Part shown: positions 7,446 through 56,011 of the stretch, one piece after another
Numbering within the stretch: the first letter of the stretch is position 1
Layout: the number at the start of each line of letters is the position of its first letter
Assembly (NCBI RefSeq): GCF_021295095.1
Contig: NZ_JAJLQX010000011.1
Coordinates: 1 to 64,000 of the forward strand
Length of the DNA stretch: 64,000 bases
Direction of reading: 5' to 3'
Origin: Phocaeicola oris
GTDB taxonomy: Bacteria; Bacteroidota; Bacteroidia; Bacteroidales; Bacteroidaceae
Notes under the pieces: generated by a model
What the model was told of the DNA's origin: nothing
The model's input: only the letters and a program-made list of their open reading frames with translations
Databases searched by the model: none
Position numbers and translations under genes: made by a program

Positions 7446-7550
7446 CACGTACGTGGTACACATTACTCACGCACGTGGTACACATTGCTCACGCACGTGG
7501 TACACATTGCTCACGCACGTGGTGCACATGGTTCACGCACGTGGTACACC
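7446..7550 (+). repeat. 22-bp tandem array, CACGTG-rich family (4.8 units)
   Basis: Units start at 7446, 7468, 7490, 7512 and 7534, exactly 22 bp apart. The shared part is CACGCACGTGGTACACAT with few changes. The array lies between the divergent AlaX-like and ATPase genes, between their promoters (7141-7171 and 7641-7672). The rest of 7172-7640 shows no gene. Two short frames across it only translate the repeat. See the array at 41831-41912 for the same family. Confidence 0.9.
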
Positions 7551-7640
7551 TAATATATCAGAAGATTCATCTGTTTTTTCACGTAAAACGACTTTATGAT
7601 GGTGACAATAAAACTAAATTATATGGATTATATTATTTGA

Positions 7641-7672
7641 TTTGCATAATTCGAATTAAATAATTATATTTG
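7641..7672 (+). promoter_or_regulatory. Promoter of the ATPase gene
   Basis: TTTG at 7641-7644 (-33), a 20-nt spacer and TATATTTG at 7665-7672 (-7) form a full Bacteroidetes promoter, with the ATG 16 nt downstream. Confidence 0.8.
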
Positions 7673-7688
7673 TAAAAAAGAAAATGTG

Positions 7689-8849
7689 ATGATTAAAAAT
7701 AGAAATCCTTTTATAGTGATAGGAAAAATTGAGCAGGAATATTTCTGCGATCGTACAGAGGAGTCTGCTCGTTTGATAAAGTCTGTTACCAATGGGAATA
7801 ATCTGGTTATTATTTCTCCCCGTAGAATGGGGAAGACCGGACTAATTCAATTTTGTTATGACAAACCGGAGATTAGTAAGCGATATTATACTTTTTTTAT
7901 TGACATACTGCATACTTCAAGTTTACGCGAATTCACCTATCTTTTGGGAAGAGAAATATATGAAGCGCTTTTACCCAAAAGTAAGAAGATGATTCAGCTT
8001 TTTGTGCAGACTATTCGGTCGATTAGCGGGAAATTTGGCTTTGATCCTGTTTCGGGAATGCCCGTCTTTAATGTAGAGTTAGGAGATATTGATCGTCCTG
8101 AGTATACTTTGGATGAAATTTTCCGTTATTTGTCTCAAGCCGATAAACCTTGTATCGTAGCGATTGATGAATTCCAGCAGATAGCGAAATATCCGGAAAA
8201 GAATATAGAAGCTTTGTTGCGGACTTATATTCAAAAGATGACTAACAGTAACTTTATTTTTGCGGGAAGTGAGCGTCATCTTATGCAAGAAATGTTCTCA
8301 TCGGCAGCCCGCCCATTCTATCATAGCGCGGATATGTTGGAATTGAAAGCTATCATTCCGGAAGAATATATTCCGTTTATTATCCATCATTTTAAAAATC
8401 GTCATCGTGATATTCAAAAAGATGATGTAGAAAAGGTATATAAATTGTTTAACGGTCATACTTACTATATTCAAAAGACATTTAATGAAACTTTTGCGAA
8501 TACTCCGGAGGGAACAGCATGCACTATTGGTATAATGCAGAAGGCCATTGATACGGTTATAGAATTGAATGCCACGGTTTATAGGGAGATTCTTTCGAAT
8601 ATTCCGGAAAAGCAGAAAGAAGTTTTGTATGCCATTGCCAATGAAGGAGAAGCAACTCATGTAACTTCAGCGGAATTTGTCAAAAATCATCGGTTAACAT
8701 CTTCAAGCTCAGTACAGTCGGCTGTTAATAAGTTGTTGGATAAGGATTTAATAACAGAAGTCGATAAGATTTATTCGTTGACCGATAAATTCTTTGCCAT
8801 CTGGATTAACAGACAATTTGGAGATGCTTCGAAATATGAGTTGATATAG
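7689..8849 (+). CDS. AAA/STAND-like ATPase (ATPase_2-like, DNA-binding C-terminus)
   Basis: 386 residues from ATG 7689 (a GTG lies just before). Walker A is SPRRMGKT (residues 43-50) and Walker B is CIVAIDE (Asp160, Glu161), followed by a sensor-like FAGSERHLM. The C-terminal 90 residues look like a winged helix (HVTSAEFVKNHRLTSSSSVQSAVNKLLDKDLI). This is the layout of the archaeal-type ATPase_2 family, whose cellular role is poorly known; members are often multicopy in Bacteroidales. It is monocistronic with its own promoter. Cytoplasmic. I cannot assign a substrate or partner. Confidence 0.8.
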   Translation: MIKNRNPFIVIGKIEQEYFCDRTEESARLIKSVTNGNNLVIISPRRMGKTGLIQFCYDKPEISKRYYTFFIDILHTSSLREFTYLLGREIYEALLPKSKKMIQLFVQTIRSISGKFGFDPVSGMPVFNVELGDIDRPEYTLDEIFRYLSQADKPCIVAIDEFQQIAKYPEKNIEALLRTYIQKMTNSNFIFAGSERHLMQEMFSSAARPFYHSADMLELKAIIPEEYIPFIIHHFKNRHRDIQKDDVEKVYKLFNGHTYYIQKTFNETFANTPEGTACTIGIMQKAIDTVIELNATVYREILSNIPEKQKEVLYAIANEGEATHVTSAEFVKNHRLTSSSSVQSAVNKLLDKDLITEVDKIYSLTDKFFAIWINRQFGDASKYELI

Positions 8850-8925
8850 TTGTCACTCCGGAAAGGTAAAAGCTAAGCAAGGTATGCATATTGTGTTAAA
8901 GAGAAATTTGAGGCATCATTAACTT

Positions 8926-8940
8926 TGCAACTAAGTTGCA
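8926..8940. promoter_or_regulatory. Fur-family-type operator, 7-1-7 palindrome
   Basis: TGCAACT-A-AGTTGCA is a perfect 15-bp palindrome with the 7-1-7 architecture of Fur, Zur and PerR boxes. It lies just upstream of the -7 element (8953-8960) of the metal ATPase, where a bound repressor would block RNA polymerase. That a Fur-family protein binds here is inference. Confidence 0.5.
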
Positions 8941-8952
8941 TTTTTCTTTTCA

Positions 8953-8960
8953 TACCTTTG
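8953..8960 (+). promoter_or_regulatory. -7 element TACCTTTG of the metal ATPase gene
   Basis: Exact match to TAnnTTTG, 19 nt before the ATG at 8980. The upstream -33 region is occupied by the palindrome at 8926-8940. Confidence 0.65.
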
Positions 8961-8979
8961 TTACATAAAATAAAATAGT

Positions 8980-10869
8980 ATGGAAAGAGAACATAAAATA
9001 AAGATTGTACGGATTATAATTTCTTCCGTTTTACTGATTACCGCAGTTATCATTGAAAAGTTAATAAGTTTACCTACTTGGCAATTACTCCTTATTTATT
9101 TGGTACCTTACCTTATTGCCGGATACGATGTGTTGATGGAATCGGCTGAGAATATTTGTCATGGTGAAGTATTTGACGAAGATTTTTTGATGTCTGTCGC
9201 GACTATTGGCGCATTATGCATCGGTTTCTTTCCGGATACGTCCAATGAATTTCCGGAGGCGGTGTTTGTTATGTTATTCTTCCAGATTGGTGAGTTGTTC
9301 GAGGATATAGCTGAAGGAAAAAGTCGTAAGTCAATTTCCGGTTTGATGGATATTCGTCCGGATACCGCCAATGTGTTGAGAGATGGTAACGTGTTGACCG
9401 TTAGTCCCGATACCGTTAAAATAGGAGAGACCATATTAATTAAGCCGGGCGAGAAAGTTCCATTGGATGGTGTGGTGACGGATGGGAATTCGAATTTGAA
9501 TACGATTGCTTTAACCGGTGAGAGTGTGCCAAGAGAGATAAAAGCAGGCGATGGAATTATTTCCGGTTGTGTGAATATTGATGGTGTTCTGAAAGTAAAA
9601 GTAGAAAAGGAATTTGGAGAGTCTACGGCTTCGAAGATATTAGATCTTGTGGAGAACGCCGGAGAGCATAAATCGAAAAGTGAGAATTTCATTTCCAAAT
9701 TTGCCGGAGTGTACACTCCGATTGTAGTATTTGCCGCGGTGATAGTGGCATTTCTTCCTCCGTTATTGTCGGGTAATTTTTCGGAAGCCTTTCCGACATG
9801 GCTTTATCGGGCATTGACATTCTTGGTTGTTTCATGTCCGTGTGCGTTTGTTATTTCTATTCCATTGACTTTTTTTGGAGGATTGGGCGGTGCTTCACGT
9901 AGTGGTATTTTGATTAAGGGATCGAATTATATAGAGACTTTGTCGAAAACAGGAGTGGTGGTGTTCGATAAGACAGGTACACTGACAAAAGGTGTGTTCG
10001 AAGTGGTAGCTGTTCATCCTGATGAGATTACTCCCAATCAGTTGCTTCATTTAGCGGCTCATGTTGAGCGTTATTCCACTCATCCTATTGCTCTTTCTTT
10101 GAAACATGCTTATCCGAATGAATCGGATGACTGTAGTGTTGAGAATGTAGAGGAGATAGCCGGGCATGGTATTCGTGCTAAAATTAATAATGATATTGTT
10201 TGTGTAGGCAATACAAAGATGATGGAATCGCTTGGTGTTAAGTGGAAAGATTGTTCTCATGCGGGTACGATTGTTCACGTTGCAATCAATGGAGTTTATG
10301 CCGGTCATATTGTAGTTTCCGATAAAATAAAGGACGATTCGAAAGATGCTGTTTTGTCTTTGAAAAAAGAAGGAGTGGATAAGACCGTCATGCTAACCGG
10401 AGATAGGGAAGAAGTTGGTAAATTTGTGGCTGCGGAACTTGATTTGGATGAGTATCATGCAGAGCTTCTTCCTGCAGATAAAGTTACTTATATTGAACAA
10501 CTTATAAAAGATAAGCCGCGAGGTAAGTCGTTAGCTTTTGTCGGTGATGGCATTAACGACGCGCCCGTTCTGGCTCGTGCGGATATAGGAATAGCAATGG
10601 GCGCGCTCGGCTCGGATGCGGCCATCGAAGCGGCCGATGTTGTGCTGATGGATGATAAACCTTCAAAAATATCTAAAGCAATTTATATAGCAAAACGAAC
10701 AATGCAGATTGCTTTTCAGAATACATTCTTTGCTATCGGGGTAAAACTTGCGGTTCTTGTTCTCGCTACTCTTGGTATAGCAAATATGTGGATGGCGGTA
10801 TTTGCCGATGTTGGCGTTACAGTGCTTTGTATTTTAAACGCTATGCGGACATTAATTGTGAAAGATTAG
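8980..10869 (+). CDS. Heavy-metal P-type ATPase, P1B-2 (Zn/Cd/Pb exporter type)
   Basis: 629 residues. This inner membrane pump exports Zn2+, Cd2+ or Pb2+ at the cost of ATP. Seen in order: N-terminal membrane spans without any HMA or CxxC metal-binding domain, the actuator TGES motif (about residue 183), the CPC motif in the membrane (286-288), DKTGTLT with phosphorylated Asp330, the HP locus (HPIALS), TGD, and GDGINDAP near residue 525. The last two spans hold GVKLAVL and FADVGVT, the Lys and Asp typical of zinc-type pumps, which argues against a copper pump. A Fur-family-like palindrome overlaps its promoter, consistent with metal control. Often annotated cadA or zntA. Confidence 0.92.
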   Translation: MEREHKIKIVRIIISSVLLITAVIIEKLISLPTWQLLLIYLVPYLIAGYDVLMESAENICHGEVFDEDFLMSVATIGALCIGFFPDTSNEFPEAVFVMLFFQIGELFEDIAEGKSRKSISGLMDIRPDTANVLRDGNVLTVSPDTVKIGETILIKPGEKVPLDGVVTDGNSNLNTIALTGESVPREIKAGDGIISGCVNIDGVLKVKVEKEFGESTASKILDLVENAGEHKSKSENFISKFAGVYTPIVVFAAVIVAFLPPLLSGNFSEAFPTWLYRALTFLVVSCPCAFVISIPLTFFGGLGGASRSGILIKGSNYIETLSKTGVVVFDKTGTLTKGVFEVVAVHPDEITPNQLLHLAAHVERYSTHPIALSLKHAYPNESDDCSVENVEEIAGHGIRAKINNDIVCVGNTKMMESLGVKWKDCSHAGTIVHVAINGVYAGHIVVSDKIKDDSKDAVLSLKKEGVDKTVMLTGDREEVGKFVAAELDLDEYHAELLPADKVTYIEQLIKDKPRGKSLAFVGDGINDAPVLARADIGIAMGALGSDAAIEAADVVLMDDKPSKISKAIYIAKRTMQIAFQNTFFAIGVKLAVLVLATLGIANMWMAVFADVGVTVLCILNAMRTLIVKD

Positions 10870-10892
10870 TATGCTTAAGAAGGAAAAAGAGT

Positions 10893-10900
10893 TATCTTTG
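10893..10900 (+). promoter_or_regulatory. -7 element TATCTTTG
   Basis: Exact TAnnTTTG match 23 nt before ATG 10924. It shows that the in-frame GTG at 10900 is not the start. Confidence 0.6.
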
Positions 10901-10923
10901 TGAATACTTATCATAGATCAAAG

Positions 10924-11946
10924 ATGAAGCAGCTTATATTTTTGATTCTTTTTGTCGGTATTCAAGCGTTTTCTTATGCACAAAAGACACTTGAAGTGGT
11001 TAGGGCTTTTCCTCAACAGGCTTTTCCTGAGATGGTGAAAGCCGGTAATTACAGTGGGATTACTCATATTAGAGGAAATCAATATGCTGTGGTGAGTGAT
11101 AAAAGCCCTTTGGCGGGATTCTATCTTTTTAATATAGACATCGATTCCATTACCGGAGAAATTACTAATGTGAAGATGGATTCTTTGCTTACTTCAGGGG
11201 AACCGAATCGAGATGAAGAGGGGATTGCTTATTGTCCAAAGTCGAATACTGTATTTGTTTCGGGAGAATCGGATCAGAAGATTATAGAATACAATTTGGA
11301 TGGTTCACTGACGGGGAGAGAATTAAATGTTCCACAATTTTTTTCAACAGCTCGGAAAAACTTAGGCTTTGAGGCGCTGACTTATAACGCAGAAACACAT
11401 TGTTTCTGGACATCAACCGAAGGACCATTGCCTAAGGATGGAGAAATCGCGACTTCTACGCGGCGTACAGAGAACCGTATTCGTATTCAGGCTTTTGATG
11501 AAACACTTCAACCAATTGGACAATATGCGTATTTGATGGACAAACCGATAGCAAAAGAATCAGCCATCAACTCACAGACGGGTGTCAGTGCAATGATTGC
11601 TTTGGATGATGGCAGATTGATTGTTCTGGAACGGGAATTTTGTTTTGTTGAAGGATATTTTGGGAGTTGGATAAATGAGAAATTGTATGTAGTGAATCCA
11701 TTGAAAGAAAAGAAAATCAATTCCACCATAGCATTATCCGATACATCTCCTTATTTGCAAAAGACACTTTTATATGAATGGAAAACAGATATATCTTTAC
11801 TTTCGTACGATTTAGCCAATTACGAAGGAATGTGTTTGGGACCAAAACTGAGAGACGGAAGTCAAGTTATCATTCTTGTCGCTGACTCTCAAGATCAATA
11901 TATGGGTCTTTTGAAAGATTGGTTAAAGGTTTTAGTTGTTAGATAA
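10924..11946 (+). CDS. Secreted esterase-like activity of phytase family protein
   Basis: 340 residues from ATG 10924, with a Sec signal peptide (MKQLIFLILFVGIQAFSYA). The rest resembles the phytase-esterase-like domain: YSGITHIRGNQYAVVSDK near the start, RDEEGIAYCPKSNTVFVSGES, LGFEALTYNAETHCFWTSTEG, and NYEGMCLGP near the end, a beta-propeller pattern. The family takes its name from an activity found in one phytase; the natural substrate here is unknown. Periplasmic or exported. It stands alone between its own promoter and a terminator. Confidence 0.75.
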   Translation: MKQLIFLILFVGIQAFSYAQKTLEVVRAFPQQAFPEMVKAGNYSGITHIRGNQYAVVSDKSPLAGFYLFNIDIDSITGEITNVKMDSLLTSGEPNRDEEGIAYCPKSNTVFVSGESDQKIIEYNLDGSLTGRELNVPQFFSTARKNLGFEALTYNAETHCFWTSTEGPLPKDGEIATSTRRTENRIRIQAFDETLQPIGQYAYLMDKPIAKESAINSQTGVSAMIALDDGRLIVLEREFCFVEGYFGSWINEKLYVVNPLKEKKINSTIALSDTSPYLQKTLLYEWKTDISLLSYDLANYEGMCLGPKLRDGSQVIILVADSQDQYMGLLKDWLKVLVVR

Positions 11947-11950
11947 AATA

Positions 11951-11986
11951 AAAATAGGACAAATTCTCACGAATCTGTCCTATTTC
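11951..11986. terminator. Bidirectional terminator between convergent genes
   Basis: AATAGGACA and TGTCCTATT pair around the loop AATTCTCACGAATC, with A and T runs on both sides. It serves the phytase-like gene (+) and hsp20 (-). Confidence 0.85.
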
Positions 11987-12007
11987 TCAATCATTTAGTG
12001 GCTTTAG

Positions 12008-12469
12008 TTATTTGATTTCGATAACTTTAACAGCTTTAGCTTTGTCTTCCGGTTTTAACTTTGGCAATTCAATATTCAATACACCATCATTGACTGTTGC
12101 GCAAATCTTATCCTTGTCTACATTGTCAGGCAAAACTAATGTCTGCTGGAATTTTGAATATGAGAACTCGCAGCGTAAGTAACGACCGTGTTGTTTCTTA
12201 TCATTCTCACCATTCTTGTTATCTTCTCTATGCTCTGTCTTCTTCTCCATAGAAATGACTAAGTTGTTGTCTTGATCCAAATGAATGTTGAAATCATCCT
12301 TATTCATACCCGGAGCAGCAATTTCTACTTGGTAGTCGTTATCATTTTCAATAACGTTCATTGCCGGAGCTGTAGCATTTGATCTAATCATCCAATCATT
12401 ATCAAAAAAGTCATCAAAAAATGTTGGTAACCAATTCTCATTGTAATTTCTTCTACTCGGTGTCATCAT
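12008..12469 (-). CDS. Hsp20 family small heat shock protein
   Basis: 153 residues. An ATP-independent holdase that binds unfolding proteins in the cytosol. The N-terminal arm NWLPTFFDDFFDND precedes an alpha-crystallin domain (about residues 36-140) with VEIAAPGMNKDDFNIHLDQDN and the conserved GVLNIELPK. Two ATG codons start the frame (12469 and 12466). The first has a perfect AGGAGG 8 nt upstream, rare in this phylum, and is preferred. It is probably stress-induced. A 6-4-6 inverted repeat (ATTCAC/GTGAAT, 12591-12606) upstream might be regulatory, but it is not the CIRCE element. Confidence 0.93.
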   Translation of the reverse strand: MMTPSRRNYNENWLPTFFDDFFDNDWMIRSNATAPAMNVIENDNDYQVEIAAPGMNKDDFNIHLDQDNNLVISMEKKTEHREDNKNGENDKKQHGRYLRCEFSYSKFQQTLVLPDNVDKDKICATVNDGVLNIELPKLKPEDKAKAVKVIEIK

Positions 12470-12477
12470 AATTGTAT

Positions 12478-12483
12478 CCTCCT
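12478..12483 (-). promoter_or_regulatory. Strong Shine-Dalgarno AGGAGG before hsp20
   Basis: The minus strand reads AGGAGG 8 nt before the first ATG. Bacteroidetes genes seldom carry a Shine-Dalgarno, and no other gene in this window has one this strong that I noticed. It decides the start at 12469. Confidence 0.7.
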
Positions 12484-12706
12484 ATTTTATTTGTTTATTA
12501 ATCAATTTATGTTTAGAACTCTTCCGCTCTTTTGGGTTTCGGAGTTCACTTAATATACAGCAAACGGTATGCCAATTTCTTTTTATGATGATTCACGCAA
12601 GTGAATGAGAAAAGAACTTCATTATTCGGACAAATTGTAATAAAAGCTGACAAAATGACTTTTTAATATAGGCTCTTAACGACATGGTTACATCTTATCA
12701 GGACAT

Positions 12707-12768
12707 AAAAAAAGGGATACCGCTGTATCCCAACCTTTGTTAACCTTAAATCTAATACTATGAAAAAC
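12707..12768 (-). ncRNA. Candidate small RNA with its own promoter and intrinsic terminator
   Basis: On the minus strand a -7 element TACCTTTG (12782-12775) is followed by about 62 nt that end in the stem GGGATAC-AGCG-GTATCCC (12731-12714) and a run of seven U (12713-12707). The body contains TTCATAGTATTAGATTTAAGG and has no useful coding frame. It sits in the 423-bp space between the end of the amylase gene (12893) and hsp20 (start 12469), same strand. The hairpin also terminates the amylase operon. An independent RNA is inferred from promoter plus terminator. Confidence 0.5.
12714..12731 (-). terminator. Intrinsic terminator of the patatin-amylase operon and candidate small RNA
   Basis: A perfect 7-bp stem with a 4-nt loop, followed on the minus strand by seven T (12713-12707). 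Confidence 0.8.
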
Positions 12769-12774
12769 ACATTG

Positions 12775-12782
12775 CAAAGGTA
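12775..12782 (-). promoter_or_regulatory. -7 element TACCTTTG of the candidate small RNA
   Basis: Exact consensus match on the minus strand. A weak -33-like CTTG lies about 18-20 nt upstream (near 12805-12801). Confidence 0.5.
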
Positions 12783-12892
12783 AGGCTATAATTGTTATTT
12801 GCAAGTTTTTTAGATAGAAAAGTTCTATTCCGTAACATTCTTTAATAGCTTACCCCAATAGTTATCTTCCTTTCTTAAAATATTTTAAGTGT

Positions 12893-14593: not shown

Positions 14594-14600
14594 AATGATA

Positions 14601-15371: not shown

Positions 15372-15392
15372 TTGTTACGTGTTATCTTTTTG

Positions 15393-15400
15393 CAAAAGTA
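15393..15400 (-). promoter_or_regulatory. -7 element TACTTTTG of the patatin-amylase operon
   Basis: Exact TAnnTTTG match on the minus strand, 21 nt before the ATG at 15371. Confidence 0.55.
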
Positions 15401-15460
15401 CTGAAATATTATGAGAAAATGTTTTATGAGTAATAAAAAAGTAAGTGTTTGATATGTTAT

Positions 15461-15495: not shown

Positions 15496-15514
15496 TCTTG
15501 ATATAAAATGTACT

Positions 15515-17130: not shown

Positions 17131-17273
17131 ACATATTATCGTGTGATAAAGTTGGTTTGCATGTAAACTTGTGCAATTCGTTTAACGATTAATATGCCTG
17201 AGGTATTTTACACGACCGATCGATTTCTGTATAATTCGTCGGAATAGATTCAATCTGTATCTATCAACGTTTT

Positions 17274-17381
17274 GATGCGTATGAGTTGATTGTTTGATGC
17301 GCATGAGTTGATCGTTTGATGCGTATGACTTTATCGTTTGATACGCATGAGTTGATTGCCTTATACGTATCGAATAATAAA
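17274..17381 (+). repeat. 22-bp tandem array, GATGCGTATGAGTTGA family (about 5 units)
   Basis: Units start at 17274, 17296, 17318, 17340 and 17362, all exactly 22 bp apart. The last is degenerate, and a weak copy may precede at 17252. Consensus of the first part is GATGCGTATGAGTTGAT. It lies in the 468-bp divergent region between xpt and the helicase, between the two -7 elements (17123-17130 and 17535-17542). Nothing else is recognisable in 17131-17534. Confidence 0.9.
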
Positions 17382-24746: not shown

Positions 24747-24766
24747 TAGGAAACTAATCTCAATTC

Positions 24767-24898
24767 GATGCGTATAAATGTGGAAAATGATGCGTATGAG
24801 TTGCTCGGTTCATGCGTATCATTTGTTAAACTCATGCGTATGAGTTGAACGATTCATGCGTATGAGTTGAGCGATTCATGCGTATCATTTTTTCCCTG
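24767..24898 (+). repeat. 22-bp tandem array, CATGCGTATGAGTTGA family (6 units)
   Basis: Units start at 24767, 24789, 24811, 24833, 24855 and 24877. The core CATGCGTAT is nearly invariant, while the second half varies. It starts 20 bp after the TPR stop and lies between two convergent genes, before the terminator at 24972. Confidence 0.92.
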
Positions 24899-24971
24899 TT
24901 TCTTTATGGAATTTTGAATTACCAAGGTGACTTATTTTTTCCCCGATGTAACCATTGAGGTATAGGCAATA

Positions 24972-31872: not shown

Positions 31873-31941
31873 GTGCAAAATGAAAAGAGAAGAAGAACAA
31901 TGAGCAATTTTTTTTGGATGATGCTTATAAAAGTGAAAAGT

Positions 31942-32029
31942 GATGCGTATGAGTTGAGTGATTCATGCTGATGAGTTGAGTGATTCATGCTGATGAGTTG
32001 AGTGATTCATGCTGATGAAACGGGCTGTT
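31942..32029 (+). repeat. 22-bp tandem array, CATGCTGATGAGTTGA variant (4 units)
   Basis: Units start at 31942, 31964, 31986 and 32008. The middle units are identical over the full 22 bp, and all but the last share ATGAGTTGAGTGATT, so this array is the least diverged and perhaps the youngest. It lies between the hydrolase stop (32042) and the ygcG promoter, both on the minus strand. Confidence 0.92.
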
Positions 32030-41760: not shown

Positions 41761-41830
41761 ATGATTTATGGTCATAAATTCTATTTTTTTATTTATATAG
41801 TTCGGTTTTTTCTTTATAAGATAGGTGTAC

Positions 41831-41912
41831 CACGTGCGTGATACATGTGCGTCACATGCGTGGTACATGTGCATCACGTGCGTGGTACACGTGCGTCACG
41901 TGCGTGGTTCAT
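41831..41912 (+). repeat. 22-bp tandem array, CACGTG-rich family (3.7 units)
   Basis: Units start at 41831, 41853, 41875 and 41897, 22 bp apart. Common part CACGTGCGTGGTACAYGTGC. In the same orientation and phase about 16 of 22 positions equal the array at 7446. It fills the first part of the 306-bp space between the nitroreductase promoter and the mltF stop (42035). Nothing else is recognisable in 41913-42034. Confidence 0.9.
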
Positions 41913-42034
41913 CCGGTTTGTCTCTCCAAAAATCTCTTCTTGTAAAGAAACCATTTATCTTGTTCCGTATCTGTATAGGATTGGAAAAGCACACATTACT
42001 CTCAGAACCGAATGGACTTTTGGGTATTGGAGGG

Positions 42035-43417
42035 TTAGTTCTTTATTTTATCTTTGTATTCAGCCTCACGGCTAAGTATATCTTTTACAAAACGATAGGT
42101 ATCTTCTCCATGGAAATAGCCATATTTGCAAACCGGATCATTGTAGTATTCTTCTTTGCCTTTAAGCAAAATGAATTCTTCTACATTATGGTCCCATTTG
42201 TACTTATCTTTTCCATATTTTTCAGCTAATGCCATAGCGTCAATAATATGTCCGGAACCGGCATTATAAGAGGCCAATACGAATTTGACGCGTTCTTGTG
42301 GGTCGGGAATGGTTTTAAATTGGTCGGCAGTAAGGCCAAGGTATTTAACGGCCGCACGGACACTTTCTTCAGCATAGTGCTCTTTTCCTTTAGGTATTCC
42401 CATTCTTTGGGCTGTTCCCGGCATCAGTTGCATCAATCCTCTGGCTCCTGCCCAAGATACAGCAGTGGTGTCGAAGTTTGATTCTGTATAAGCTAAGGAA
42501 GCTAATAATCGCCAATCCCAATTGATGTCTTTTGCGTATTTCTTAAAGAGGTGATCGTATGGTGAAATGATGCCTTTCGACAAGTCAAGCATCGGAGAGT
42601 GGGGAATCATTTTGCTGACTTCAAAATATCGTTTGGTGCTGGCTTTATAAGCCATAGTCTTGATATTTAACTGATGCCAGCGGGTTGCGTAAGCGGCTAA
42701 AAGCGGAGATGTTTTACGTACAGCCCAAGAAGACTTCTGGTCAAAGCTGACAGCTAAATCAATATTAATATTGGAATAATATGTTTGATTCAGTTTAGCA
42801 AGTGTATTATCACAAATGGTGTAATCAATCACTCCGTGAGCAACCTGTTCGATAAGGTCTTCGGTAGAGAGACTGTCTGTGTTTACAGGATGGATAACGA
42901 TGCCGCCTCCTAATTCTTCATTGAGGTTATTCAGTCTGTCATGATAGCGTCCGGGTTCCACATATATTTCTTTGCCAACGAGTTGTGTTACATCAGTGAT
43001 CGGTTTTTTATTGCCAAGCCCATTCCGTTGAACTAACACTTGATGAGTGATATGTTCGTCACCACAGAAAAGCACGCTGTCTTTATACTCTTTAGTAATG
43101 GCAAGGTTGTATGCGATGATGTCGCCTTCGCCACGCTCGAGCATTTCTACCATTTCGTGCTGACTGCGAGCAACCTTTACGATTAGTTGTAAATTTAATG
43201 AGTTAGCCAACTGTTCCATTAACTCATATTCAAATCCCATAGGTTGACCTCGATAAAGGAAGTAAGAAGTAGATCCGTACATAGTGAGAGCTACTATTCG
43301 GCCGCTATCTTGAATCTGCATCAGATCAATATTCGGTACTTCCTGTTGTTTATGATTGGATTTACAACAACAAAGGATAATAGAGATAATTATGAACAGT
43401 ATAGCCGTTTTCTTCAT
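42035..43417 (-). CDS. mltF: MltF-like membrane-bound lytic murein transglycosylase
   Basis: 460 residues. A lipoprotein signal peptide (SIILCC) is followed by a periplasmic solute-binding-protein-like domain (about 35-260) and a C-terminal lysozyme-like SLT domain with catalytic Glu311 in YTESNFD, then SWAGARGLMQLMPGTAQRMG. It cleaves peptidoglycan with formation of 1,6-anhydro ends at the outer membrane. Its first codon overlaps the udk stop (ATGA), so udk and mltF form an operon. Confidence 0.93.
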   Translation of the reverse strand: MKKTAILFIIISIILCCCKSNHKQQEVPNIDLMQIQDSGRIVALTMYGSTSYFLYRGQPMGFEYELMEQLANSLNLQLIVKVARSQHEMVEMLERGEGDIIAYNLAITKEYKDSVLFCGDEHITHQVLVQRNGLGNKKPITDVTQLVGKEIYVEPGRYHDRLNNLNEELGGGIVIHPVNTDSLSTEDLIEQVAHGVIDYTICDNTLAKLNQTYYSNINIDLAVSFDQKSSWAVRKTSPLLAAYATRWHQLNIKTMAYKASTKRYFEVSKMIPHSPMLDLSKGIISPYDHLFKKYAKDINWDWRLLASLAYTESNFDTTAVSWAGARGLMQLMPGTAQRMGIPKGKEHYAEESVRAAVKYLGLTADQFKTIPDPQERVKFVLASYNAGSGHIIDAMALAEKYGKDKYKWDHNVEEFILLKGKEEYYNDPVCKYGYFHGEDTYRFVKDILSREAEYKDKIKN

Positions 43418-49082: not shown

Positions 49083-51005
49083 TTCTTGACATTCCTTTAG
49101 CCATAAGCCGGCATTGGCATCACTTGGCATTCGCCAGTCACCACGAGGACTAAGGGTTACAGACCCGACTTTTGGACCGTCCGGCAGGCAAGACCGTTTG
49201 AATTGTTGTTGGAAGAAACGACGAAAGAAGGTGTATAGCCATTTTTTTATGACCTCGTCTGTGTATTGATTCTTAAAGGCATTTTTAGCCAGAAGGAAGA
49301 TCTTGTTCGGGCGATATCCGAATCGGAAGAAATAGTAAAGGAAAAAGTCATGTAATTCGTATGGGCCGACCAAATCTTCCGTTTTTTGCTTAATGTTTCC
49401 ATTCTCATCAGCTGGGATAAGTTCCGGACTGATTGGAGTATCTACAATATCGAGTAACGTGTTTTTTGTTTCTTCATCAACTTCATTATTTGCAATCCAT
49501 TTAACCAAATATTGTACTAATGTCTTTGGGATACTGGCATTGACGCCATACATTGACATGTGATCACCATTGTAAGTTGCCCAACCTAATGCTAATTCTG
49601 AAAGGTCACCGGTTCCAATAACTAAGGCACCCATTTGATTGGCGATATCCATCAATATTTGGGTCCGTTCACGAGCTTGACTGTTTTCATATGTTATATC
49701 ATGAATATTTATATCGTGTCCTATATCATTAAAATGTTGAATTACAGCATTCTTAATACTAATTTCACGTATAGTTACTCCCAGAGATTTCATCAGCTTC
49801 ATAGCATTATAATAGGTACGGTCGGTAGTTCCAAACCCAGGCATTGTGACAGCAATGATACCTTCGTGTCCCATCTTAAGTTGATCGAAAGCTCGAATAC
49901 AAACTAATAGGGCTAAAGTAGAATCCAATCCACCGGAAATACCTAATACCAATTTTTCCGCTCTGATATGATCCATTCGCTTTATTAGTCCTGCCACTTG
50001 AATAGCAAAAATCTCTTCACACCGTTCATCCAATCTGTCTTGATCTTCAGGAACGAATGGGTGTGGCTTATATGTTCGGGTTAAGATCAAGTCAGGTCGA
50101 CTCAAGAATTCTGTATTGACATGAAGCATGTCTGTATTCTGATATGCTCCAATGCTCTTTGTGAAAGACGTATTAGCACGACGTTCGTTTCGAATGCGCT
50201 CAACATCTATTTCACTGATAATCAGTTGCTCTTTATATTGAAATCGTTTGGCTGTAGCAATCTCATTGCCACATTCATAGATGAGTCCGTTGCCGGCAAA
50301 AACCATATCGGTGGTTGATTCACCGTATCCACACGAACAGTAAACATAACCTGACAAACATCGAGCTGACTGCTGGGCAAGCAATGAGGACAAATATTCA
50401 TGCTTGCCAATGCATTCATTGCTGGCTGATAAGTTGAATATAATTTCTGCCCCTTTCAATGTTAATACAGAACTTGGAGGAATTGGAGCCCATAAATCTT
50501 CGCATATTTCGATTCCAAATGTTGTTTCAGGAGAGTCAAATAGCAGGTGTGAGCCTATAGGAACTATTTGTCCGCAGAGACGCGTCTCTCCTTTAGGAAC
50601 GCTGTCGGCCGATGCGAACCAGCGTTGTTCATAGAATTCCTTATAGTTTGGAAGATATGTTTTTGGAATAATGCCTAATACCTTACCTTTTTGAATGACT
50701 ACTGCACAATTAAGCAGTACCCCTGCATAAGATAAAGGCATTCCTATAATAGAAATGATGTTCAATTGACGTGTATCATTCAGTATTTTCATGAGTGCAA
50801 TTTCTGCTTCTTCCAGCAAAAGAGTTTGTTGGAATAAATCTGCACACGTATAGCTGGTGATGCACAACTCAGGGAATACTGTTATTTCTACACCTTTACC
50901 GTCAGCAATAGCAATCAGATTTTCTATTTGATGAGCATTGTACTTACAATCGGCTACCTTAACCATAGGTATAGCAGCAGCTACTCTAACAAAACCGTAT
51001 TTCAT
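49077..51005 (-). CDS. nadE: Glutamine-dependent NAD+ synthase
   Basis: 642 residues. The N-terminal nitrilase-type amidase frees ammonia from glutamine (Glu46, Lys115, Cys168). The C-terminal synthetase domain has the PP-loop [14 protein letters not shown] and amidates NaAD to NAD+. The length is typical of the two-domain form, so no outside ammonia supply is needed. A -7 element TAAATTTG lies at 51033-51026. Confidence 0.96.
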
Positions 51006-51025
51006 ATTTAATTTGATTTATGTGA

Positions 51026-51033
51026 CAAATTTA
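51026..51033 (-). promoter_or_regulatory. -7 element TAAATTTG of nadE
   Basis: Exact consensus on the minus strand, 20 nt before the nadE ATG. Confidence 0.5.
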
Positions 51034-51084
51034 ACGATTAATTCTATATTTAACATATAAAAACGAAAAAAAGTTCCCAATGCA

Positions 51085-51115
51085 TTTGGTCGTCTCAAAA
51101 ATGTATGTACCTTTG
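51085..51115 (+). promoter_or_regulatory. Consensus promoter of the PerR-like regulator gene
   Basis: TTTG at 51085-51088, a 19-nt spacer and TACCTTTG at 51108-51115. It rules out the in-frame ATG at 51080 as the start. Confidence 0.8.
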
Positions 51116-51128
51116 CATCAAAATAAAA

Positions 51129-51145
51129 TTTGTAATTATTACAAA
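51129..51145. promoter_or_regulatory. PerR/Fur-type operator, 17-bp palindrome
   Basis: TTTGTAAT-T-ATTACAAA is a perfect 8-1-8 palindrome that contains the 7-1-7 spacing of Fur-family boxes and is close to the PerR type. It lies in the 5' leader, between the -7 element and the regulator ATG at 51158, so it fits autoregulation. Binding itself is inferred. Confidence 0.7.
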
Positions 51146-51157
51146 GTTGAAATTAGT

Positions 51158-51583
51158 ATGAATACGGTAGAGTACTTATTAAGTTTTAATATAAAGCCAT
51201 CAGTACAAAGGATCGCAGTTATGGATTATTTGTTAACCCATAAAACACATCCTAATATTGATGAGATATATTCGGCTTTAAATAAGACAATGCCTACTTT
51301 ATCGAAGACAACTATTTATAATACATTACGTCTCTTTGTTGAACATGGCGCGGCTTTAATGCTGACAATAGATGATAAGTATGCTTGTTTTGATGGTGAC
51401 ATTCATCCGCATGCGCATTTTCTTTGTTCAAAGTGCAATAAAATTTATGATTTGCCATTAAGTGAAGACTTTTTGGAGAGATCAATGCAAGGGGTTGATG
51501 AATATAAGGTTGATGAGGTTGCGTTATATTATAGAGGAACTTGCCCTAATTGTTTAAAGAAAGAGAAATTAAATAAGAATTAA
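51158..51583 (+). CDS. Fur family regulator, PerR-like
   Basis: 141 residues. Winged-helix DNA-binding domain (about 10-80, QRIAVMDYLLTHKTHPNIDEIYSAL and LSKTTIYNTLRLFVEHG) and dimerisation domain. Structural zinc cysteines form two pairs (Cys90/Cys93 and Cys129/Cys132). His31, His83, His85, His87 and Asp98 occupy regulatory-metal positions. Asp98, where Fur has Glu, favours a peroxide sensor of the PerR type. A palindromic operator is in its own leader and a peroxide-reducing rubrerythrin follows 33 nt downstream, which supports that role. Confidence 0.88.
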   Translation: MNTVEYLLSFNIKPSVQRIAVMDYLLTHKTHPNIDEIYSALNKTMPTLSKTTIYNTLRLFVEHGAALMLTIDDKYACFDGDIHPHAHFLCSKCNKIYDLPLSEDFLERSMQGVDEYKVDEVALYYRGTCPNCLKKEKLNKN

Positions 51584-51616
51584 TAATTTGTGGTTTTTTG
51601 ACTAATTTATAAAGAT

Positions 51617-52168
51617 ATGAAGAAATTTATTTGTACAGTTTGTGGTTACGTTCATGAAGGAGAGACAGCTCCTGAGCAGTGTCCTATTTGTAAAGCTCCG
51701 GCTTCAAAGTTTAAGGAAGTAGACGAGAACTCTGATCATTTACAGTTTGCTGATGAGCACGTTCTTGGTGTAGCTAAAGGTTGTGACGATGAAATGATTA
51801 AGGACTTGAATTCACATTTCCATGGTGAATGTGGTGAGGTTGGCATGTATATGGCAATGAGTCGTCAGGCTGATCGCGAAGGCTATCCTGAGATTGCAGA
51901 AGCTTTTAAACGTTATGCTCTTGAAGAGGCTGAGCATGCAGCTAAGTTTGCTGAATTATTAGGCGATGTAGTTTGGGATACTAAAACTAATCTTGAGAAA
52001 CGTATGTTGGCTGAGCAGGGTGCTTGCGCAGATAAGAAGCGTATAGCTGTTCGTGCTAAACAGTTGAATCTGGATGCTATTCATGACACTGTCCATGAGA
52101 TGGCCAGAGATGAAGCCCGTCATGGCAAGGGCTTTGAAGGTTTATATAACCGTTACTTTAAGAAGTAA
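51617..52168 (+). CDS. Reverse rubrerythrin (NADH peroxidase type)
   Basis: 183 residues. The rubredoxin domain is N-terminal (CTVCG with Cys6/Cys9, CPICK with Cys22/Cys25) and the diiron four-helix domain follows ([32 protein letters not shown]). This is the reverse order to classical rubrerythrin. It reduces hydrogen peroxide and protects anaerobes from oxygen. It lies downstream of the PerR-like gene and is probably under its control. Confidence 0.93.
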
Positions 52169-52183
52169 AAAGATTGATTCATT

Positions 52184-52228
52184 GGGTATGAAAGCCGTGC
52201 TGATTGATTCAGCGCGGCTTTCATACCC
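52184..52228 (+). terminator. Long hairpin after rubrerythrin
   Basis: GGGTATGAAAGCCG (52184-52197) pairs perfectly with CGGCTTTCATACCC (52215-52228). After one mismatch four more pairs close a 7-nt loop. There is no T run directly after, so a second hairpin downstream may be the real terminator. Confidence 0.7.
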
Positions 52229-52250
52229 AATGCCGAGGCTTTATTAAGAG

Positions 52251-52304
52251 AAAGTATATATAAAAAAGGCTGCTAATTAAAACAGCCTTTTTTATATATA
52301 CTTT
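52251..52304. terminator. Bidirectional terminator with a perfect 22-bp stem
   Basis: 52251-52272 pairs without mismatch with 52283-52304 around a 10-nt loop. The stem contains A6/T6 blocks next to GGCTG/CAGCC, so it works in both directions for the rubrerythrin operon and the convergent OmpH-like gene. Confidence 0.9.
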
Positions 52305-52310
52305 CGGAAA

Positions 52311-52916
52311 TTATTTCTTCTTGGGAGTATAACGGGCATTCAAACCATTAACCACCTCATCCGTAATATCGAATGCTTTTTTTGCATAAAGCAAATTATC
52401 TAAACCGGAATTACTAAGAATTAAATCGTAATTCTGAGTCTTGTTGTATTCTTTTAAGAACGAAGAGATAGAATCACGCAATTCTAAATTATTCTTCTGC
52501 TGCATAGACGCAAATTCATCACTTAGATTTTGTTGTTGTTGTTGTAAATCTTGCTGTTGTTTTAAGATTCGCTGCTGTTCTTGTTGAGCACGTTCCTGAG
52601 AAGTGAATCCGTTATTCTGAACTTTACGCTCCCATTCACGGGCATCAGCATCAAGTTTTTTAGCTTTCTCATTTAGTGTAGTACGGATATTCTCTTCTTT
52701 CTGAAGCATCATCTCATTCAAATCCTTGCAGAAATTATATTTACTGAGTAAAGAATCAATTTCAACATAAGCGATTTTCAAATTTCCATTTGGAGCTGCC
52801 TCTTTTGTTGTTGAAGGTGCAGCAGATGTACTTGTTCCTTGATTTTGGCATGCAGAGAATGATAACGCGACAGCCAACATCAGAAGACCTTTAAAAAGGA
52901 AGTTTTTCATTTTCAT
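52311..52916 (-). CDS. OmpH/Skp-like periplasmic chaperone lipoprotein
   Basis: 201 residues from ATG 52916 (52910 is the next in-frame Met). Lipoprotein signal peptide with lipobox FSAC, a Ser/Thr-rich linker, then the OmpH fold: IAYVEIDSLLSKYNF, a long coiled coil (about 85-160, very Gln-rich) and YDLILSNSGLDNLLYAKKAFDITDEVVNGLNARY. Skp-type proteins hold unfolded outer membrane proteins. Lipid anchoring is common in Bacteroidetes. The upstream small membrane protein gene is 31 nt away. Confidence 0.9.
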   Translation of the reverse strand: MKMKNFLFKGLLMLAVALSFSACQNQGTSTSAAPSTTKEAAPNGNLKIAYVEIDSLLSKYNFCKDLNEMMLQKEENIRTTLNEKAKKLDADAREWERKVQNNGFTSQERAQQEQQRILKQQQDLQQQQQNLSDEFASMQQKNNLELRDSISSFLKEYNKTQNYDLILSNSGLDNLLYAKKAFDITDEVVNGLNARYTPKKK

Positions 52917-52947
52917 AACTATTTTGTTTTTATTTATTTCTATTCTA

Positions 52948-53154
52948 TTAACACTCACGTTCTGCTATAGCGTGCTGATTTTCTGCTCGTGCTTCTTGAT
53001 CTTGAGCTTCTACACAACGAATGCCCTGATCATTTAGAGCTTTGTTCCCATCGACATGGAAATTGGGGAATTTTCCTTTTATCCATACTCCAATACCTAA
53101 TAATCCGAAACAGATTGCAACTATTAACAAAGTTATAAGCAGAGTTTCAATCAT
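52948..53154 (-). CDS. Small membrane protein, conserved Bacteroidetes type
   Basis: 68 residues. One N-terminal membrane span (LLITLLIVAICFGLLGIGVWI), then GKFPNFHVDGNKALNDQGIRCVEAQDQEAR, a pattern I associate with small uncharacterised membrane proteins of Bacteroidetes. Two Cys lie after the span. It is just upstream of the OmpH-like gene and likely in the same operon. A -7 element TATATTTG lies at 53223-53216. Function unknown. Confidence 0.75.
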   Translation of the reverse strand: MIETLLITLLIVAICFGLLGIGVWIKGKFPNFHVDGNKALNDQGIRCVEAQDQEARAENQHAIAEREC

Positions 53155-53215
53155 TATATTTAAATTTGTAGTACAAAAAAATACAAAGATTATTTCTTGT
53201 ACTGTATTTATGGTG

Positions 53216-53223
53216 CAAATATA
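53216..53223 (-). promoter_or_regulatory. -7 element TATATTTG upstream of the small membrane protein gene
   Basis: Exact consensus on the minus strand, 61 nt before the ATG at 53154. Confidence 0.45.
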
Positions 53224-53345
53224 AACTTTTACACGAACTTAACTTTGTCTTTTCAGTAAAAATAATTTTGAAAATCAAAGAAAAGAGCGAATTTAACTAA
53301 TTTTTGCAGTGAAAGTAATTAACAACATCTAAATCATATAGGAAT

Positions 53346-54803
53346 ATGGAAATAAAAGAATTGAAGCCTATAGAGGTTTTTCACTATTTCAGTGAGATTT
53401 GTAAGGTGCCTCGTCCTTCTAAAAAGGAAGAAAAGATGATTGCTTTTTTAAAAGCATTTGGTAAAGAGCATGGTTTGGCAACTACTGTGGATGAAGTCGG
53501 AAATGTGAAGATAGATGCTCCTGCTACAAAGGGTATGGAAAATCGTAAAAAGATAATCTTGCAATGCCATGAGGATATGGTGTGCGAGAAGAATGCGGAT
53601 GTAAAACATGATTTTTCTAAGGACCCTATTGAACCGTATGTCGATGGAGAATGGCTTCGTGCTAAAGGAACTACGCTGGGTGCCGATGATGGTATTGGCA
53701 TTGCTACTTGTTTGGCTATCTTAGCATCGAAAGATGTTGAACACGGACCTATAGAATGCGTATTTACTCGGGATGAAGAGACCGGAATGACTGGTGCTTT
53801 TGGTATGAAAGCCGACTTTATGGATGGGGATATTCTTATTAATCTGGATTCTGAGGATGAAGGTGAGATGTTCATTGGTTGTGCGGGTGGAGCCAGCACT
53901 GAAGCAGATTTTAAATATAAAGTGGTTCCTGTTCCTGAAGATTTCTATAGTTTTAAGGTAGAGGTTAAAGGTTTGAACGGTGGTCATTCGGGTGATGATA
54001 TTAATAAAGGCAGAGCGAATGCTAACAAATTGTTGGTTCGTTTCTTGCTGAAGTTGGCTGATAAGTATCCGTTCTATTTGTGCAGCATTGATGGAGGTGG
54101 TTTGCATAATGCTATTCCTCGTGAGGCTCATGCTGTTTGTGCTGTTCCTACAGCTGTTAAGGAGCATGTCCGTGCCGATTTGAATATTTATATCGCAGAA
54201 GTTGAAAGAGAATTTGCCGTTACCGAAAAGGGATTGGCTATGGATTTGAATACTGTCCGTCGTCCGAAAGAAGCAATTGATCCGCGAGCAGGTAAGAAGA
54301 TACTTCGTTCGCTGTATGCTGTGTTCAATGGAGTTTATGCCATGAGTCAGAGTATTCCAGGATTTGTTGAAACATCTACCAATTTGGCATCTATAAAAAT
54401 GATAGATGGGAAAATTCACGTAGTGACAAGTCAGCGCAGCTCTATCGAGTCACAGTGTGCGGATGTTTCCGAGACTGTCCGCTCTGCTTTCTTGTTAGGC
54501 GGGGCAAAAGTTGTTACGGGCGATGGATATCCCGGTTGGGAGCCGAATCCTAATTCTGAGATTCTGAAGATTGTTGTCGAGAGTTATAAGAATATCTTTG
54601 GTCGTGAGCCAAAAGTAAGGGCTATTCACGCAGGTCTGGAGTGCGGGCTTTTCCTGAAGAGTTATCCGAAACTTGATATGGTCTCATTCGGACCGACTAT
54701 GCGTGGCGTACATTCTCCGGATGAGCGATTGGAAATTAAAACCGTAGACATGTTTTGGAAACATCTTATTGATGTCTTGAAGAATATCCCTGTAAAAAAT
54801 TGA
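53346..54803 (+). CDS. pepD: Aminoacyl-histidine dipeptidase (peptidase D)
   Basis: 485 residues, M20 metallopeptidase that cleaves X-His dipeptides (carnosinase-like). Zinc ligands and catalytic residues are in QCHEDMV, LGADDGIGIA and TRDEETGMTGAFG. GLNGGHSGDDINKGRANA marks the lid domain and GPTMRGVHSPDERLEI the C-terminal ligand. It has no signal peptide. Its TGA overlaps the next ATG (TGATG). Confidence 0.96.
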   Translation: MEIKELKPIEVFHYFSEICKVPRPSKKEEKMIAFLKAFGKEHGLATTVDEVGNVKIDAPATKGMENRKKIILQCHEDMVCEKNADVKHDFSKDPIEPYVDGEWLRAKGTTLGADDGIGIATCLAILASKDVEHGPIECVFTRDEETGMTGAFGMKADFMDGDILINLDSEDEGEMFIGCAGGASTEADFKYKVVPVPEDFYSFKVEVKGLNGGHSGDDINKGRANANKLLVRFLLKLADKYPFYLCSIDGGGLHNAIPREAHAVCAVPTAVKEHVRADLNIYIAEVEREFAVTEKGLAMDLNTVRRPKEAIDPRAGKKILRSLYAVFNGVYAMSQSIPGFVETSTNLASIKMIDGKIHVVTSQRSSIESQCADVSETVRSAFLLGGAKVVTGDGYPGWEPNPNSEILKIVVESYKNIFGREPKVRAIHAGLECGLFLKSYPKLDMVSFGPTMRGVHSPDERLEIKTVDMFWKHLIDVLKNIPVKN

Positions 54804-55810
54804 TGAAGAAACTGGTTTTATTGATATATATGTGCTGTCTGACTGCATCTTTGCATGCCGGACAGCCTTTTCGCGTGATGTTCTATAATGTGGAGAATCT
54901 TTTTGATACGCAACATGATGAAGGGAAGAACGATTATGAATTTCTTCCTGATAAACCTAAAGCATGGACTTATGCCCGTTACCAGGACAAACTGAATAAG
55001 ATAGCAAAGGTAATTATTGCGACGAGTAAAGAGAATGTGCCCGATTTGGTAGGACTTTGTGAGGTGGAGAATGACCGTTGTCTGACAGACTTGACCGAAC
55101 ATTCGCCTTTGTGTGAAGCCGGTTATCGCTATGTGATGACTGAATCGCGTGATGAACGTGGCATTGATGTGGCTTTGCTATACCAACGTTCCACATTCAA
55201 GTTTATTGATAAAGAAATAATTCAAATTCCATTGGGAATAGTGAATCTTCCGCCTACCCGTGATATCCTTCATGTGGTTGGTCAGGTTTTATCAGGCGAT
55301 ACATTGGATGTATTTGTTTGTCACATGCCATCGAGAGCAGGAGGAGAGGAGAAAAGTAAACCCTATCGCAGACTTACTTCACAGATACTTCGCGCCAAAG
55401 CAGATTCGGTTATGAATATCCGCCATCATCCTAATGTGTTGATAATGGGAGACTTCAATGACTATCCGAAGGATGAAGCCATTTATAAAATATTAGAAGC
55501 AAAGAAACCGAAACTATTTATAAAATCGCGTAAGTTATATAATCTGATGGACAGGCGGAAAGAAGGTACTTATCGTTATCGTGGCGAATGGGGAGTGCTC
55601 GATCAATTGATTGTCTCAGGATATTTATTGACAGGGCATGCTGTTCGTACACGATATGAGAATGCTCAGATATTGCGTTATCCTTTTTTGTTGGAAGAGG
55701 ATGACCGGTATGGTGGAGAGATCCCGTCGAGAACATATTTGGGGAAGAAATACCACGGAGGGTATAGTGATCATTTGCCCGTTTGTATCGACTTTGAAAT
55801 AAATTATTAA
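54803..55810 (+). CDS. Secreted endonuclease/exonuclease/phosphatase family protein
   Basis: 335 residues. A signal peptide (VLLIYMCCLTASLHA) is followed by an EEP fold: MFYNVENLFD, VGLCEVEND (metal-binding Glu), VCHMPSRAGG, IMGDFND (Asp and Asn of the active site) and a terminal YSDHLPV (His). Bacteroidetes members are often annotated as exported nuclease or phosphatase. The substrate cannot be told. The ATG at 54803 overlaps the pepD stop by 1 nt, so the two genes are coupled. Confidence 0.9.
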   Translation: MKKLVLLIYMCCLTASLHAGQPFRVMFYNVENLFDTQHDEGKNDYEFLPDKPKAWTYARYQDKLNKIAKVIIATSKENVPDLVGLCEVENDRCLTDLTEHSPLCEAGYRYVMTESRDERGIDVALLYQRSTFKFIDKEIIQIPLGIVNLPPTRDILHVVGQVLSGDTLDVFVCHMPSRAGGEEKSKPYRRLTSQILRAKADSVMNIRHHPNVLIMGDFNDYPKDEAIYKILEAKKPKLFIKSRKLYNLMDRRKEGTYRYRGEWGVLDQLIVSGYLLTGHAVRTRYENAQILRYPFLLEEDDRYGGEIPSRTYLGKKYHGGYSDHLPVCIDFEINY

Positions 55811-55814
55811 AGTT

Positions 55815-55849
55815 AACGCTTAAGGAAATAGTCATAGTCCTTAAGCGTT
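55815..55849 (+). terminator. Intrinsic terminator of pepD-EEP
   Basis: AACGCTTAAGGA pairs perfectly over 12 bp with TCCTTAAGCGTT, followed by TTCTTTTTT. Confidence 0.92.
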
Positions 55850-55879
55850 TTCTTTTTTATGGGTATCAATGAATAATTT

Positions 55880-56011
55880 AATACGTATCACCTGCTCAAC
55901 TCATACGCATCACTTGCTCAACTCATGCGGATGAGTTGGACGATTCATACGTATAAAGCTTCACACTGATCCGTATCAAATCTAACGTTGATCCGTATCA
56001 GCTATCTATTC
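55880..56011 (+). repeat. 22-bp tandem array, mixed orientation (6 units)
   Basis: Units start at 55880, 55902, 55924, 55946, 55968 and 55990. The first part contains CAACTCATACGCATC, the exact reverse complement of the core at 17274, while the third unit reads CATGCGGATGAGTTGGACG in the forward sense. So the orientation switches while the 22-bp phase is kept. It lies between convergent genes, after the terminator at 55815. Confidence 0.9.

Follow-up and report, generated by a model that had tools for sequence, protein, structure and literature searches.

Rows of protein-binding sites about two helical turns apart, lying beside the gene of the protein that binds them, are familiar from plasmid iterons and multi-site operators. 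HU-like proteins are commonly viewed as general chromosome packers, and a study of 2017 reportedly defined clades of one family among them, HU-HIG. A tandem-repeat intergenic element called BrickBuilt has been published for Porphyromonas gingivalis; its description gives a 23-nucleotide unit, rows of as many as 22.8 units, terminal inverted repeats that resemble the ends of IS5-family elements, and 19 occurrences in ATCC 33277 (PMC4596501). The first 64,000 nucleotides of contig NZ_JAJLQX010000011.1 of Phocaeicola oris, here called the window, carry six intergenic arrays of units repeated at 22 bp, and arrays with this geometry stand beside most of the HU-HIG (PF18291) genes compared. The first-pass annotation, made from the letters of the window, knew of no described element of this form, a statement that the publication of BrickBuilt narrows. 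It also offered a helically phased protein-binding array as one explanation, and the HU-HIG association now favors that choice. With a probability of roughly 60%, the arrays would be operators recognized by HU-HIG proteins, with some types multiplied across the genome.

HU-HIG genes and the arrays beside them

The partner gene was found by clustering the genes that adjoin arrays. The biggest clusters arise from how loci were fetched or from common families; a VapE-like and an HU-HIG cluster were followed, one member of each being scanned with Pfam. A VapE-like gene (PF05272 in the member scanned) has a four-unit array in front of it, of one type throughout, in six species of the genus (L304, L306, L307, L308, L310, and L311; G, L, and C are the labels of the analysis for genomes, loci, and contigs, G000 being the genome of the window). 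In three of the six, an HU-HIG gene shares this array divergently. The array at C11:132019 of the window's own genome also precedes an HU-HIG gene, and those array-side proteins that were scanned belong to PF18291, above its cut-off (Pfam).

A first set consisted of 30 loci from an HU-HIG search with 39 matches, in which arrays were judged by eye and by Tandem Repeats Finder (TRF). An upstream array, mostly of four dyads and in letters of its own each time, precedes 10 of the 11 HU-HIG genes that have a C-terminal extension. Two short HU-HIG genes (L325 and L334) also have an upstream array. No upstream dyad array is seen at eight other short genes, for which the downstream side was not scored separately, and no array at eight plain HU paralogues and one broken gene. 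Repeats of other kinds accompany some short genes: a weak lag-22 stretch downstream of L326, a TTTTAAC heptamer repeat directly before a short HU-HIG gene of G007 (L317, about 1406-1490), and CTAGTTAACTAG-like 23-bp repeats 0.7-1.3 kb upstream of L338 and L341 (G124).

In a separate test, 40 HU-HIG genes from seven genomes of other genera were chosen before their DNA was seen and scanned for lags of 15-30, with significance drawn from 200 shuffles each that kept only base composition, as also for the background genes, the loci fetched for other reasons, and the dyad comparisons below. A significant array lies on some side of 29 of the 40 genes, and the 32 significant lags all fall at 21, 22, or 23. 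Genes of at least 180 amino acids (aa) have an upstream array in 11 of 14 cases, one of these having a downstream array as well. The 26 shorter genes have one upstream in 8 cases, downstream in 12, and on either side in 18; in G149, G150, and G161, the array of a shorter gene is often downstream. The upstream background is 90 of 1517 genes for a significant lag of 21-23 (157 of 1517 for any lag), against which the 11 of 14 longer HU-HIG genes give a Fisher p of about 2e-11. Loci fetched for other reasons contain five strong HU-HIG-like open reading frames (ORFs), including the known C11 gene. Each has a significant upstream repeat, at lag 21-22 in four and lag 16 in one.

Strong HU-HIG matches (best E <1e-20) occur in 8 of 60 genomes of the order, namely this one and the seven tested. 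The weaker matches in the remaining genomes are probably plain HU, and seven sampled genomes with weaker matches only have no period-22 array in 283 kb. The C-terminal part of the longer proteins gives weak winged-helix matches (E 0.0045 and 0.09); read alongside the Pfam family description, it looks like a winged helix. A TAnnTTTG-like box stands before 21 of the 31 HU-HIG genes with gene-side arrays, a count with no chance level set. The array lies just downstream of the box in several genes of the genus and upstream of it in others (G143 and G179), and either placement may be compatible with operators. The adjacency of arrays to most HU-HIG genes suggests that these proteins read the arrays.

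The 22-bp unit in the window, the genome, and the order

The six arrays of the window repeat at exactly 22 bp, as first described, with 5, 5, 6, 4, 4, and 6 units; unit counting over the whole window places each in one register without insertions or deletions. Array 1 (7440..7549; no strand is assigned to any of the six) consists of five CACGYRCGTG units in a divergent gap. Array 5 (41825..41912) has four units of the same type, and both share their type with the array before the HU-HIG gene G000:C11:131577. Array 2 (17268..17377), in a divergent gap before a 1932-aa protein, has five GATNCGNATG-type units, the final one degenerate. Array 3 (24761..24892) comprises six units of the TCAT-N4-ATGA type between convergent ORFs. 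Array 4 (31936..32023) comprises four units, mainly TCAT-GCTG-ATGA, and takes up most of a 141-bp gap with a minus-strand gene on each side. Array 6 (55874..56005), between convergent genes, has six units with mixed TCAT/GAT arms. The arrays at 17274, 24767, 31942, and 55880 may each have one extra degenerate in-register unit in front (lenient score 5/6). The intergenic placement holds for all six, with the qualification that array 5 overlaps a mechanical 134-aa ORF (41825-42229). This ORF, which also shares sequence with the end of the gene at 42035-43417 on the opposite strand, probably does not represent a gene. The units of the window arrays abut with no unique spacers between them, which is not the arrangement of clustered regularly interspaced short palindromic repeats (CRISPR).

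Arrays at 22 bp are in excess across this genome (2.98 Mb in 50 contigs, about 95% complete). A 453-kb sample was made up of the window, contig 11, and 60 kb of contig 22. There, a lag scan over periods 8-79 finds 30 period-22 segments, all intergenic, and otherwise harmonics (22 segments at 44 and 13 at 66) plus single segments at 41, 42, and 70. Taking the best row per place, TRF finds 39 intergenic arrays of period 22 and one of period 23. Periods 18-21 and 24-28 are empty, and nine arrays have other periods, five of which are 44; one coding array has period 22. The step is 22 in 120 of 120 steps of 29 chained arrays of 4 to 8 units, where chaining allowed 21-23 and tried 22 first. Whole-genome matches to CAYGYRYRTGR number 142 + 108, versus 15 + 10 for the reversed pattern. 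One array used as a BLAST query matches at least 50 stretches of its own genome (40 of 197 candidates scored) and has no match in 20 relatives. Tandem repeats of 40-41 bp in the same genome, at L040:18141-18365 and L024:14400-14629, look unrelated to the 22-bp arrays.

Aligned on their core, the units are near-palindromes of the form CAY-N4-RTG, with the extensions TCAT-N4-ATGA, TTTCAC-N4-GTGAAA, and CACG-YR-CGTG. The core CAYGYRYRTGR proposed from the window is over-represented but too narrow. Its alternating purine-pyrimidine middle is not general, as centers GCTG, CAGC, TTCT, and ATCA occur, and the arrays have dyad symmetry in common rather than alternation, leaving a special role for Z-DNA-prone steps without support. 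The two sequence families do agree by transitions, because going from CAT..ATG to CAC..GTG alters the two arms of the near-palindrome together. Some first units begin with G since a separate end variant (AAAGTGAT... / ...ATCACTTT) often takes the outermost positions, and distinct end units are frequent in arrays. The dyad is systematically imperfect: the center is palindromic in 4 of 129 TCAT-nCGn-ATGA units versus 47 expected from the end letters, and pairing is also avoided at most variable pairs of the G003 and G008 arrays. Part of this imperfection would follow if an asymmetric unit lies in both orientations. Most TCAT-N4-ATGA units of the window's own genome contain exactly one TCATGCG half-site, which gives the unit a direction. 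In the G003 arrays L288, L289, L292, and L297, the first and last units are exact or near reverse complements (CGCTTCGGCG / CGCCGAAGCG), so that the whole array is mirrored.

Beyond this genome, dyad symmetry is marked in 51 period-22 intergenic arrays (z 6.1 and stem z 10.3 versus shuffles) and slight in 46 arrays of other periods from 15 to 30 (z 1.6, stem z 2.3) and in 59 coding repeats (z 1.9, stem z 2.0). Dyads could act in transcripts, as hairpins that serve as terminators, mRNA stabilizers, or structures of the 5' untranslated region. The units of period-22 arrays in other genomes are indeed foldable (mean best stem 4.2 versus 2.95 in shuffles), and several HU-HIG arrays lie between the TAnnTTTG-like box and the start codon. 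However, mismatched dyad pairs on the sense strand of 31 gene-side arrays comprise 64 G-T and 65 A-C, which is no G-U preference, and in tandem gaps the wobble strand agrees with gene direction in 6 cases, disagrees in 8, and is undecided in 2. Most variable pairs lack covariation and avoid pairing, and ten loci, the window itself not among them, contain no Rfam family except one tRNA. The wobble, covariation, and Rfam results disfavor an RNA function, which is very improbable.

The arrays are also intergenic, palindromic, and clustered, and a gene with its own repeats on its flanks recalls the REPtrons of repetitive extragenic palindromic (REP) elements, which are mobilized by a REP-associated tyrosine transposase (RAYT). 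Here, though, the array-side gene is HU-like and encodes no transposase. Y1_Tnp (PF01797) has 0 matches in this about 95% complete genome, and 5 of 14 control genomes match. A RAYT-type origin was rejected and has hardly any probability left.

Relatives found by protein search are Bacteroidales, with a top identity of 67% (isolate RUG12482). In 80 alpha-2-macroglobulin-like loci totaling 1.62 Mb, intergenic arrays at periods 20, 21, 22, 23, and 24 number 0, 7, 41, 6, and 1, with 35 more outside periods 18-28; coding arrays number 7 at 22 and 9 at 21. Leaving out six short loci, 24 of 74 have a period of 22 or 44, versus 1, 6, 5, and 1 for 20, 21, 23, and 24 with their doubles. The sequences of these period-22 arrays are mostly unrelated to each other and to those of the window. 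The pairing of conserved phase with drifting sequence that was noticed in the window is real and extends across the order. The alpha-2-macroglobulin-like gene itself has a period-22 array upstream in 6 of 69 loci, which is not an enrichment over 26 of 259 gaps. The strict 22-bp period holds inside this genome and relaxes to 21-23 in the HU-HIG arrays of others. In a partial check of its conservation, the period is kept at 22 bp beside the VapE-like gene in six species and at 21-23 beside HU-HIG genes, but the gaps of the alpha-2-macroglobulin-like gene also show other periods (e.g. 18, 21, 23, and 27).

Three of six relatives in the genus (G001, G004, and G011) have no period-22 array in 100-200 kb; occurrence is thus patchy. 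Small samples from farther away contain none in 283 kb of other families of the order, one in 204 kb of other orders of the class, and none in 120 kb of other classes of the phylum; an Escherichia coli control gave one 21-bp repeat in one 50-kb stretch. Elsewhere in the genus, GTGAAA-type arrays give 21 matches in nine other genomes, with four units at 22 bp in 9 of 10 loci examined, and dozens of matches to the AAACG type occur in G003 and G008. Arrays have exactly four units in 18 of 21 cases in G008, the units differing from one another, and three units in 11 and four in 9 of 20 cases in G003. The loci of both genomes were picked as top BLAST matches of a 107-base query, a choice that favors arrays near that length. 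In G008, 63 steps are 22 and 4 are 21; in G003, 46 are 22 and 4 are 21, a count that includes a false array (L296). For the gap of array 6, TRF detects no period-22 array in any of the 29 relatives' loci scanned, of 59, around the neighboring exonuclease-like gene, and the sequence after this gene looks different in the seven relatives inspected. Two pairs of G008-G003 array regions (L269/L283 and L270/L282) are 98.7% identical over 3 kb, unlike the other loci compared. This identity reflects either recent transfer or cross-contaminated assemblies, and the pairs are therefore unusable as an orthology test. The G003 copies L282 and L283 were dropped from covariation and neighbor counts, and L296 also from context counts.

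Gene-side types and their dispersed copies

Two array types of this genome occur both beside an HU-HIG gene and at dispersed places. At least 43 stretches of this genome, among them the array itself and some that overlap, match the array before C6:45060 (40 of 51 candidates scored); four other genomes have no match. The CACGYRCGTG array before C11:131577 occurs at five places in a 530-kb sample, some loci of which were fetched because they matched an array or leader: its own place, window positions 7446 and 41831, and two more. In G007, the HU-HIG array L328 (AAACGTACGTTT) resembles the AAACG type with a different center. The two-copy repeat at C11:185188 resembles the type of L320.

Across three genomes, dispersed arrays are present in 23 of 45 convergent gaps, 40 of 108 tandem gaps, and 15 of 69 divergent gaps (convergent versus divergent, p 0.002). 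Gaps were counted from 150 bp in this genome and from 100 bp in G003 and G008, whose loci had been fetched because they bear arrays, and genes in all context counts were called by a longest-ORF rule of our own, with no gene finder. A convergent gap lacks promoters for the genes on either side, and many of the dispersed arrays are thus not promoter operators. Many arrays here share a scaffold made up of a tail and a leader of about 90-130 bp (24 elements aligned), and the leader consensus occurs at 40 or more places in the genome by BLAST (40 of 110 candidates scored). Among the window arrays, scaffold sequence is limited to a partial leader match at the right flank of array 3 (24876-24927, E 0.00025). 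The same scaffold holds TCAT-type or GTTTCAC-type units; L071 has both in one array, and by hand count their junction is 22 bp and in phase.

These features raise the possibility of non-autonomous mobile elements with an internal minisatellite, similar to BrickBuilt, in which the array is a by-product with no binding function. Tolerated insertions would favor convergent over divergent gaps as observed, BLAST finds no match for the scaffold outside the array in any of 60 further genomes searched within the genus, with up to 10 candidates scored in each, and some arrays of this genome, such as L074, have near-identical units. A mobile origin leaves unexplained, however, why the same period recurs with unrelated sequence in many species and why arrays are tied to HU-HIG genes. 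Furthermore, the mutually different units of the mostly four-unit G008 arrays are unlike slippage copies. Of terminal inverted repeats, just the short mirrored ends AAAGTGAT / ATCACTTT are seen, and neither a transposase nor a target-site duplication was identified for them. Mobile elements as the whole explanation are unlikely. Dispersal in the manner of miniature inverted-repeat transposable elements is possible and compatible with arrays that are HU-HIG operators.

The arrays might instead be phased sites of another nucleoid or chromosome-organizing protein, with HU-HIG genes merely among its targets. Some array types lack an HU-HIG partner, and the VapE-like gene also bears arrays. On the other hand, HU-HIG genes carry arrays whose letters differ, also between genes of a single genome (L315, L320, L327, and L337), and a single common binder fails to explain this difference. 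Such a protein is an improbable explanation.

Several observations weigh against arrays as HU-HIG operators. TCAT-N4-ATGA, the commonest type in this genome and that of arrays 2, 3, 4, and 6 (17274, 24767, 31942, and 55880), has no HU-HIG partner at the six loci looked at among the eight PF18291 matches of this genome. None of the 21 genes facing TCAT arrays within 220 bp was recognized as HU-like from its first 60 residues, no family search having been run. Full HU-HIG genes of G003 and G008 (L318, L319, L323, and L324) lack an adjacent array despite the dispersed AAACG type in these genomes, and L324 does so with a C-terminal extension. No array lies beside 11 of the 40 genes of the separate test, and HU-HIG genes within one genome are not independent, as in the lag-21 group of G143. 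Finally, no dispersed copies exist of an array that adjoins one HU-HIG gene of G150, and the gene-side arrays L315 and L320 of the window's own genome form no clusters in 530 kb. These undispersed arrays indicate that dispersal is no general property.

Proposed HU-HIG operator arrays and the closest known systems

If HU-HIG proteins read the arrays, each array would be a few near-palindromic sites, often four, presented once per two helical turns and read as DNA. The reader would combine an HU/IHF-like domain with, in longer members, a C-terminal winged-helix-like part. For these longer members, the protein's own array just upstream of the start codon would be an autoregulatory operator. A common protein architecture may set the 21-23-bp spacing, and the letters would differ according to the specificity of each protein. 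An array type appears to have been multiplied to tens of intergenic places in some genomes, among them the present one, where it often lies within larger dispersed elements, and the dispersed copies most likely serve architectural or regulatory binding.

More tentatively, the HU-like family may form a diversifying code. Each gene would have its own spelling of a row of about four phased dyads beside it. Such rows would in some lineages be spread as chromosomal addresses, where binding shapes or marks the genome, and related species would use different words in the same meter. If true, the order would gain specific architectural regulators with private, geometrically fixed arrays at known addresses. 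Most HU-HIG genes bring their own candidate site, which makes the prediction unusually testable.

Like BrickBuilt, the present arrays are found in Bacteroidales, are intergenic, and consist of spacer-free tandem units of about two helical turns with a leader and a tail. They differ in their period of 22, dyad unit, small number of units, and unrelated sequences that share a period, BrickBuilt being compared by description; the part of that description available gives no link to an HU-like gene (PMC4596501). REP elements, the bacterial interspersed mosaic elements (BIMEs) they form part of, and RAYTs offer a second parallel, as short multi-copy extragenic palindromes with a protein gene flanked by its own repeats. 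Here, by contrast, there is no Y1 transposase, the units are tandem at a fixed 22 bp, and the partner gene is HU-HIG (PMC3733652). The literature searched, which covered few subscription papers, contained no description of cognate tandem arrays for HU-HIG. Compared with plasmid iterons and multi-site operators, the arrays are chromosomal, have dyad units, are dispersed to tens of places in some genomes, and keep their geometry while their letters change.

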